Assembly: GCA_030531745.1 (NCBI GenBank)
Contig: JAUNMU010000003.1
Span: 1 to 38,574, forward strand
Direction: 5' to 3'
DNA: 38,574 bases
Origin: Synergistes sp.
GTDB lineage: Bacteria > Synergistota > Synergistia > Synergistales > Synergistaceae
Program-made: the position numbers and the translations under genes
Shown here: positions 36,689 to 38,295 of the stretch, piece by piece
Layout of the letters: each line of letters begins with the position of its first letter
Numbering within the stretch: position 1 is the stretch's first letter
The notes under the pieces: model-generated
Database searches by the model: none
Told to the model about the DNA's origin: nothing
Seen by the model: only the letters and a program-made list of their open reading frames with translations

Positions 36689-36717
36689 AGTATAACAAAT
36701 AACTCTGCTTTTGTTGA
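36689..36717 (-). promoter_or_regulatory. Sigma-70-type promoter for pheS-pheT
   Basis: On the minus strand: -35 TCAACA (36717-36712), 17-base spacer, -10 TATACT (36694-36689) preceded by TG in the extended position. It lies just downstream of the rplT terminator and about 107 bases upstream of the pheS start, leaving a leader long enough for the hairpin at 36616-36658. Confidence 0.75.
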
Positions 36718-36822: not shown

Positions 36823-37173
36823 CTACAGGGCAGCACGAGCCTTTTCTACGATCTGCACAAACGCCTGCGCATCGTTCACAGCAAGGTCAGCAAGCATCTT
36901 ACGGTTAATTGTTATGCCTGCTTTCTTAAGGCCGTTCATCAACGTGCTGTAAGACATCTTGTTTGCGCGTGCCGCAGCATTTATGCGCATGATCCACAGT
37001 TTGCGGAAATCACGTTTTTTGTTCTTCCGTCCCACAAAAGCACTCGTCAAAGCATGCAGATAAGCTTCGCGTGCACGGCGATATACATTCTTTTTACGAC
37101 CCCAAAATCCTTTGGTAATGCTGTATAATTTCTTCTGTTTATTGCGGCTTGCGCTTGAACCCTTTACTCGCAT
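36823..37173 (-). CDS. rplT: 50S ribosomal protein bL20
   Basis: 116 residues, standard length. Highly basic protein that binds 23S rRNA early in assembly of the large subunit. The segments [24 protein letters not shown] and [21 protein letters not shown] are diagnostic. In other bacteria L20 also represses its own operon by binding the leader mRNA. The start is ATG after AAGGAG. It is the last gene of infC-rpmI-rplT, 48 bases after rpmI, and is followed by a strong terminator. Confidence 0.98.
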
Positions 37174-37468: not shown

Positions 37469-38110
37469 CTATATCTTATCTGCGTCAAATACAAAATCCT
37501 TCTTGGATTTTGACGCTTTCTGAGGCATAACTTCTGATTTTTTCTCCGGCTGCGCATTGACCGGTGCTGTTTTCTTAACCGGACCCTCACAAAGAGGCAC
37601 GACAAGCATCCTCATATATGAGCCTTCCATACGCGGCTCAGCCTCTACCTTTCCATACTCCGCAACAGACTCCTCAACTTTCTTTAGGACATCGCGTCCT
37701 CTGTCAAGAAAAGCCATCTCCCTGCCCCTAAAAAAGACCGACACTTTGACCCTGTGGCCATCTTTCAAGAACTCCTGCACGGCTTTTACCTTGAAATCGT
37801 AGTCGTGCTGGTCAATTTTCGGACGCATCTTTATCTCCTTAATAGCCTGATTCTTCTGTTTCTTTCGTGCGTCCTTATCGCGTTTCTGCTGCTGGAAACG
37901 GTACTTGCCGTAATTCATTATACGGCACACGGGCGGCGTCGCCTGCGGCGCCACCTCAACGAGATCCAACTCCGCCGCTTCCGCCATCCTGAGAGCATCC
38001 TGTATCTTAACTACGCCGCGCTTCGCGTTTAACTCATCTATGAGCAACACCTCCGGACAGCGAATCTCCGAATTCACGCGCGGCTCTTCTTCTCTCTGGT
38101 TTGCTATGAT
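37469..38110 (-). CDS. infC: Translation initiation factor IF-3
   Basis: About 213 residues. IF3 binds the 30S subunit, proofreads the start codon and keeps subunits apart. The N-domain (REEEPRVNSEIRCPEVLLID) and C-domain (KEIKMRPKIDQHDYDFKVK) are well conserved. No ATG, GTG or TTG is near the expected N-terminus. GGGAGG is followed at 6 bases by AUC (38110) and at 9 bases by AUA (38107), so translation most likely begins at one of these. Rare start codons on infC are known to allow IF3 to repress its own synthesis. An ATG at 38227 opens the same frame but would translate the leader and its terminator hairpin. The last 35 residues form a lysine-rich tail longer than usual. Confidence 0.95.
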   Translation of the reverse strand: MIANQREEEPRVNSEIRCPEVLLIDELNAKRGVVKIQDALRMAEAAELDLVEVAPQATPPVCRIMNYGKYRFQQQKRDKDARKKQKNQAIKEIKMRPKIDQHDYDFKVKAVQEFLKDGHRVKVSVFFRGREMAFLDRGRDVLKKVEESVAEYGKVEAEPRMEGSYMRMLVVPLCEGPVKKTAPVNAQPEKKSEVMPQKASKSKKDFVFDADKI

Positions 38111-38136
38111 ATTACACCTCCCAATATCCGAGCCAT

Positions 38137-38170
38137 AAAAAAAGCTCGCATGCACAGAACGCACCCGAGC
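38137..38170 (-). terminator. Attenuator-like hairpin in the infC leader
   Basis: On the minus strand, GCTCG (38170-38166) pairs with CGAGC (38148-38144), with four more pairs inside and a 7-base loop, followed at once by seven Us (38143-38137). The CGAGC arm can alternatively pair with a second GCTCG just past the U-tract (38133-38129), so two exclusive folds are possible. It ends 26 bases before the infC start. Position and design match leader attenuation of this operon, as known for L20 control in Bacillus. The ligand here is inferred. Confidence 0.65.
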
Positions 38171-38266
38171 CTGAATTTCTTCTTTGGCTGACCTGACAAC
38201 AGACAACATCGGCAGGTGAGAGTACATCCTCTGCTTATAACCACGTCGGCATCCACCGACTTATGT

Positions 38267-38295
38267 ATGCTAACATAGATTCTTCAAATATGCAA
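38267..38295 (-). promoter_or_regulatory. Candidate promoter for infC-rpmI-rplT
   Basis: On the minus strand: -35 TTGCAT (38295-38290), 17-base spacer, -10 TAGCAT (38272-38267) with a TG extension. This would give a leader of about 150 bases before infC, containing a small stem (GTCGG with CCGAC near 38242-38257) and the attenuator-like hairpin. The match to consensus is moderate. Between this site and the tRNA gene I see only a 12-base palindrome (38365-38376). Confidence 0.5.

Follow-up and report, generated by a model that had tools for sequence, protein, structure and literature searches.

A probable L20 leader of known class, uncalled at the Rfam threshold, upstream of infC in a Synergistes genome, and a candidate permuted form of its L20 site in another family of the order

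In Bacillus subtilis, the genes infC, rpmI and rplT are reported in that order (PMC6097659, PMC10931766), and the L20-interacting RNA upstream of them (Rfam RF00558, with elements H1, H2, H3 and H4) is described as carrying the L20 site at the H1-H2 junction, with the terminator H4 forming upon L20 binding (PMC6097659). In the account given by PMC10931766, this leader adopts two alternative folds, of which L20 favours the terminator, and PMC7247131 names two consecutive G-C pairs and an AA dimer as the elements that L20 r-leaders share with rRNA. The distribution of the B. subtilis-type RNA is described as narrow, within the Firmicutes (PMC6097659); among our control genomes, the RF00558 model also matched Thermotoga. 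Here we analysed the RNA upstream of infC in the window, that is, the whole 38,574-nt stretch of Synergistes DNA under study. This RNA, at 38236-38136 on the minus strand, is very probably a homologue of the L20 leader, an attenuator by which L20 limits expression of infC-rpmI-rplT. From the homology to the B. subtilis system, we infer that L20 is the ligand, that it acts on the leader, and that termination occurs in vivo. The L20-type leader is the usual infC leader in the window's group, where the RF00558 cut-off yields none of 149 genomes.

On its minus strand, the window carries, in order, tRNA-Ser (38499-38407), the leader, infC, rpmI, rplT, an intrinsic terminator, pheS and pheT, the protein genes being named by their NCBIfam matches. 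As expected of RF00558, the leader precedes infC (IF3; 37469..38107, TIGR00168, E 7.8e-64), rpmI (L35; 37222..37419, TIGR00001, E 1.5e-21) and rplT (36823..37173, TIGR01032, E 5.2e-42), the last of which encodes L20, the proposed ligand; pheS scored 227 bits, slightly below its model cut-off of 237.45. On the 3' side of rplT, a strong intrinsic terminator (36776-36740) is followed by a promoter-like site (36689-36717) ahead of pheS, so that pheST is possibly a transcription unit of its own. The infC start codon is probably the AUA at 38107-38105, which lies downstream of a strong ribosome-binding site, GGGAGG (38122-38117). Among 107 infC leaders, the start codons that fitted by rule were AUA in 69, UUG in 29, AUU in four and AUC in three, with two undecided.

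The upstream tRNA-Ser gene has a good sigma-70 promoter match (11/12), which would fit another explanation, namely, that a constitutive, unregulated terminator upstream of infC merely ends the tRNA-Ser transcript. We regard this as very unlikely, given that a probable promoter of the infC operon, as judged from its sequence, is located between tRNA-Ser and the leader (38267..38295, minus strand; TTGCAT at 38295-38290, 17 nt, and TAGCAT at 38272-38267 with a preceding TG), and that many genera conserve, before infC, the hairpins P1 and P2, an AAG and a CC/GG element that do not vary, and the antiterminator pairing described below. This promoter was absent from the output of a consensus promoter scan; similar TTG...TG-N-TATA boxes were seen by eye at the same place in relatives.

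Read in the direction of transcription, a small hairpin, GUCGG-UGGAUG-CCGAC (38245..38260, minus strand; a hairpin listing gives it on the opposite strand), lies near the predicted 5' end of the L20-type leader, and some family-f1 relatives also have a hairpin at this place. Next, with all further parts also on the minus strand, comes the AA dimer (38235..38236) in AAG, the first of two recognition elements for L20. Tandem hairpins follow: P1 (H1; 38219..38232) pairs AGAG (38232-38229) with CUCU (38222-38219) around the loop 38228-38223, and P2 (H2; 38191..38217) pairs ACCUG (38217-38213) with CAGGU (38195-38191) below an upper stem of CGAU/GUUG. The other recognition element, two consecutive G-C pairs, is found in P2 (38216-38215 with 38193-38192), and the window thus shows the tandem hairpins, the AA dimer and the G-C pairs characteristic of RF00558; all 31 aligned relatives carry both elements unchanged. 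Downstream of P2, a linker hairpin (38168..38189; AGCC at 38189-38186 with GGCU at 38171-38168) appears in the minimum-energy nascent fold, its 3' strand coinciding with the terminator foot. The intrinsic terminator itself (38137..38170; stem 38170-38144, U7 at 38143-38137) lies, as in RF00558, between P2 and infC. The 306-nt stretch from the tRNA to infC folds more stably than shuffled versions (z -3.2, 0/100); the 114-nt leader 38245-38132 by itself is no stabler than its shuffles (z -1.1, 26/200).

Scanning the window with Rfam at its cut-offs returned the tRNA only, with no T-box or riboswitch model reached, on which basis we rejected a T-box or another known riboswitch; matches to the sX4 and plastid models overlap the tRNA, below their own cut-offs, and were rejected as well. 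In a permissive scan of 675 bases, which the earlier note had recommended, L20_leader aligned over its full length (1-127) at 38242-38132 with 25.1 bits (E 0.013), a score short of the RF00558 gathering cut-off of 58.7 bits. This cut-off is a curator's detection limit rather than an anatomical feature and is the only tested point on which the window falls short, so we file the window as an L20-type leader uncalled by Rfam. Relatives behave similarly: under a permissive RF00558 scan, ten of 17 (two of them permuted, see below) match at E <= 1 and six at E <= 0.0014, the best at 47.3 bits (E 2.3e-6) and none above the cut-off. Over the 149 genomes of a phylum sample, none exceeds the cut-off, with a best score of 57.5 bits, and 33 match at E <= 0.001, some of the weak matches lying elsewhere than before infC. 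Annotation based on the cut-off would therefore miss these leaders, and the window leader is very probably an L20 leader of the known class that the Rfam threshold misses.

A model built from relatives provides the stronger match. IF3 was found in 57 of the 60 genomes searched, and the L20-type layout (AAG, P1, P2 and the downstream stretch) could be parsed in 52 of these 57 infC leaders, the window being counted in both cases; the five unparsed leaders comprise three permuted ones and two of family f2 without a visible L20 site. We aligned 31 of the 33 parsed family-f1 leaders (alignment A1, with the window and L040 left out) and derived from A1 the covariance model R1, from which the window is thereby excluded. 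R1 scores 69.6 bits (E 1.2e-17) on the window leader at 38236-38136, and nothing else in the 38,574 bases matches with E of 10 or less. It also matches all 13 Bacillus-group loci tested (E 6.5e-11 to 1.7e-4), taken from 80 gathered by IF3 similarity, and the covariance search across the phylum that the earlier note called for found R1 matches in 83 of the 149 sampled genomes, including ones used to build the model. Together with the full-length alignment of RF00558, the match of one model to both the window and the Bacillus group speaks against the suggestion in the earlier note of a distinct leader class unlike the Firmicute L20 leader.

The pattern of substitution supports the same anatomy. 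On A1, P1, P2 and the terminator together have 96.3% of cells paired, dropping to 37-48% in slid versions, with two-sided changes in 15 of 26 pairs (1/500 shuffles) and a covariation score that 0 of 500 reached. Both sides have changed in five of the nine pairs of P2 and in ten of the 12 terminator stem pairs (31 aligned relatives). P1 is 100% paired, nearly invariant and free of two-sided changes, and because it hardly varies, its support consists of conservation, not covariation.

The terminator hairpin and its seven Us are present ahead of infC where the earlier note had placed them. The hairpin 38170-38144 (GCUCG-G-GUGCG-UUCUG-UGCAU-G-CGAGC, minus strand) folds at -15.6 kcal/mol, whereas its shuffles average -7.1 (z -4.0, 0/200); it was not among the output of a simple terminator scan. 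A terminator hairpin occurs at the equivalent place in 50 of the 52 parsed infC leaders, window counted; L045 and L046 failed the U-run rule, though a hairpin and Us are visible in both.

The earlier note set against this hairpin a further partner of its 3' arm just beyond the U-tract, as the switch of what might be a new kind of leader. Such a partner does exist: GCUCG at 38129..38133 (minus strand) is perfectly complementary to the terminator 3' arm, CGAGC (38148-38144), and in the window this post-U pairing, at -13.2 kcal/mol, ranks fourth in strength among 86 leaders. The 51 nt from 38170 to 38120 fold with this pairing at -16.1 kcal/mol (z -2.0, 8/200 shuffles as good), and when all 306 nt of the leader are folded, it is predicted beside the antiterminator. 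Yet it is conserved no more than chance in relatives: 19 of 86 leaders have at least five Watson-Crick pairs in a row joining the post-U bases to the 3' arm, compared to 15.7 +/- 3.6 once the bases are shuffled, and swapping partners between genera does not weaken the pairing (z +1.2, 86 leaders). Of the two pairings that the earlier note opposed, the terminator covaries and the post-U pairing shows no such signal. Moreover, considering how intrinsic termination works, a partner made after the U-tract, and thus transcribed only past the termination point, would come too late as an antiterminator. We therefore rejected the post-U partner in this role, and with the element matching L20 leaders by both RF00558 alignment and R1, we give scarcely any credence to a distinct class switching through it. 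At most, to judge by its place in the whole-leader fold, the pairing may arise in the window once transcription has read through, and it shows no sign of selection.

What survives of that proposal is attenuation by two exclusive folds, with a different partner. The comparison of leaders supports, as the covarying alternative partner of the terminator 5' arm (38166-38156), the upstream P1 strand and loop (38230-38220). In the window, the first antiterminator strand, AGGAUGUACUC (38220..38230, minus strand), takes in the P1 loop and part of each P1 strand, and the second, GGGUGCGUUCU (38156..38166, minus strand), covers the apical loop of the terminator together with its 5' arm. The pairing was first spotted by eye and then assessed by swapping segments between genera and comparing native with swapped pairing energies. 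For 86 leaders from 48 genera, the native value was -11.38 and the swapped value -8.77 kcal/mol (z -7.7, 0/8000); for 50 leaders from 29 genera, the values were ~ -12 and ~ -9.4, with 0/2000 in each of six draws; and with one leader per family (eight families, five draws), 1 to 38 of 5000 swaps did as well. Shuffling across genera removes phylogeny incompletely, the safeguard being that control pairings in the same test of 86 leaders are flat (P1 loop with the 3' arm, z -0.7; P2 with the 5' arm, +0.2). The linker did not pair preferentially with the terminator 5' arm (z +1.7) or its foot (+1.3) in the 86 leaders, and we rejected the linker-foot pairing, which looks good by eye in family f1, as a general feature.

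A run of five Watson-Crick pairs between the P1 loop and the 5' arm is found in 51 of the 86 leaders, and the two partners change together, as in AUGCGCC/GGCGCAU, UACGCC/GGCGUA and CGCACC/GGUGCG, as well as ACCGAUCC with GGGUCGGU and GAUACGCU with AGCGUAUC. Within family f1 by itself, the covariation is modest (88.5% paired vs 86.5% shuffled, 13/500; 16 to 50 of 500 by other measures), and in some leaders the pairing is weak (in kcal/mol, L047 -4.2, L051 -4.7, L052 -4.9, L146 -2.0 and L187 -2.4). All 80 Bacillus-group leaders have the same complementarity between the P1 loop and the terminator arm, usually GCACCCGC with GUGGGUGU; because the P1 loop there is nearly constant, the swap comparison is confined to the 86 leaders above. 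In family f3, 14 of 50 leaders were unparsed (13 permuted, one with foreign sequence upstream), and G113, where the contig starts 72 bases before the match, was left out of the set. In a few of the rows kept (e.g., L148, L156, L158, L164 and L181), the wrong hairpin was probably taken for the terminator, which should weaken the swap test rather than help it.

Nascent folds, taken as the RNA up to the terminator apical loop, before the 3' arm exists, point in the same direction. The energy model excludes pseudoknots, so that P1 and the loop pairing occurring together are beyond its scope. Within this limit, 71 of the 86 leaders have a minimum-energy nascent fold in which the antiterminator is formed and P1 is open, 11 retaining P1 and four showing neither; once the 3' arm is added, the terminator is present in the full-length fold of 77 of 86. 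In the Bacillus group, the nascent fold includes the P1-loop pairing in 79 of 80 leaders. In the window, 38230-38220 and 38166-38156 form a helix of 11 pairs that closes a junction keeping P2. This antiterminator fold has -25.7 kcal/mol, enforcing P1 gives -19.0, and in these in silico folds the antiterminator excludes both the terminator and P1, as in RF00558. The minimum-energy fold of the full-length window RNA is likewise the antiterminator, not the terminator, implying that termination must depend on L20 or on kinetics.

Since the antiterminator predominates in nascent folds, the operon should be on without ligand. When L20 is scarce, the P1 5' strand and loop would pair with the terminator 5' arm as soon as it is transcribed, leaving P1 open, the terminator blocked and the operon transcribed. 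Surplus free L20 would bind the P1-P2 junction, at AAG and at the CC/GG pairs in P2, and lock P1; the terminator arm would then be freed, the hairpin and U7 would form, and transcription would end before infC. As the antiterminator consumes P1, which is half of the L20 site, L20 binding should block it and cause termination. The same anatomy could in principle answer another ligand, such as IF3 or L35, or act mainly on translation: infC is the first gene of the operon, and IF3 is described as autoregulating in E. coli (PMC10931766). The invariance in relatives of both elements that PMC7247131 assigns to L20 r-leaders, the homology to Bacillus-group leaders, and the presence of a terminator with a U-tract make this exceedingly improbable in comparison with an attenuator responding to L20.

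Some relatives depart from the usual arrangement. At L219 and L237 (L185 being the same place as L237), the infC leader is replaced by foreign sequence, and these strains may accordingly lack L20 control of infC; by eye, the foreign sequence resembles the end of a TnpB-kind transposon gene. In L168 and L169 of family f2 (the same as L056 and L057), pattern search and inspection by eye revealed no L20 site or terminator before infC in either of the two genomes found.

A different departure is seen in genus g23, which belongs to another family of the window's order and supplies three of the five unparsed leaders among the first 57. Judging by sequence, most g23 infC leaders read likely contain a natural circularly permuted L20 site, in which the switch logic is kept despite the changed strand order. 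Here the loop of the P1 hairpin is opened, with the GGCU strand and P2 coming first and the AAGNAG strand after P2; the element order is GGCU-C-U-CC-YG (GGCU-C-N-CC-YG overall), P2, GG, a short linker and then AAGNAGCC. Both L20 elements are retained, and the P1 strand that now lies 3' also serves in the antiterminator, e.g., AAGCC with GGCUU. IF3 was found in 39 of 43 g23 genomes, and among the 40 infC loci read, 32 appear permuted, 29 by script and three more by eye, the eye reading covering the nine that the script left as other. The remaining loci are two canonical by script, three canonical-like by eye, two with foreign sequence upstream and one cut by a contig end. Example permuted loci upstream of infC are L166, L222, L235 and L236, in which the antiterminator is nested, and the g23 permuted leaders, e.g., L055, have a conserved GCAUAUAA stretch in the loop between the antiterminator strands.

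In 15 aligned permuted leaders (the alignment omits L163, which has a long insert), neither the CC and GG in P2 nor an AA varies; L160 and L182 are misaligned at the AAG, their aligned AA adjoining the true AAGCAGCC, which also has AA. Pairing was examined in 29 of the 32 permuted leaders, three being dropped for a missing TCAGG anchor. Their P1 strands are GGCU/AGCC in 22, GGCU/AGCU in five, GGCU/AGUC in one and AGCU/AGCU in one, the last being the one permuted leader with a two-sided P1 change. In all 29, the AAGNAG strand pairs with the terminator region in the nascent fold, and in L235 both antiterminator partners have changed, giving AAGUC with GACUU. The 19 distinct native AAGNAG pairs have -10.3 kcal/mol compared to -7.7 when swapped (0/5000), a test within one genus, the control pairings belonging to the set of 86 leaders. 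On seven permuted leaders, R1 gave any match in only two (best 9.8 bits, E 0.44), and it scored the canonical g23 leader L154 at 47 bits.

From the shared elements, the genus and the position, we infer a common origin of the g23 permuted leaders with the L20 site. The literature that we searched, with most subscription papers outside our reach, described no permuted L20 leader, nor any L20 leader in Synergistota. If the reading is true, the two recognition elements would constitute an L20 site that is independent of strand order, and the g23 form would show that a recognition site can reorder its strands with function kept.

Among described ribosomal protein leaders, several bear on the window. 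Control of rpmI-rplT in E. coli, as presented in PMC10931766, also uses L20 as ligand and rRNA-like recognition, as proposed here, but it is translational, relies on a pseudoknot together with an irregular hairpin, and exempts infC. The B. subtilis rplJL attenuator that responds to L10(L12)4 is described as working by the logic suggested for the window, in that a fold stabilised by the ribosomal protein prevents the antiterminator and gives the terminator (PMC10931766); ligand, operon and RNA all differ, making this an analogy only. A Deltaproteobacteria L20 r-leader candidate shares the two conserved L20 elements with the window on a scaffold that the paper describes as a different one (PMC7247131). 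The closest counterpart is the B. subtilis L20-interacting RNA (RF00558), with which the window has in common the infC-rpmI-rplT operon, the order of elements (AAG, P1, P2, linker, terminator, infC) and both L20 elements. The window differs from it in scoring below the cut-off, in the overlap of its linker hairpin with the terminator foot, in an infC start that is probably ATA rather than the ATT given for B. subtilis (PMC6097659), and in the sequences of the P1 loop and terminator, which co-vary together. The complementarity of the P1 loop to the terminator arm is common to the window, RF00558 and the Bacillus group, and this pairing would offer a reason, testable by mutation, why L20 binding and antitermination are mutually exclusive.
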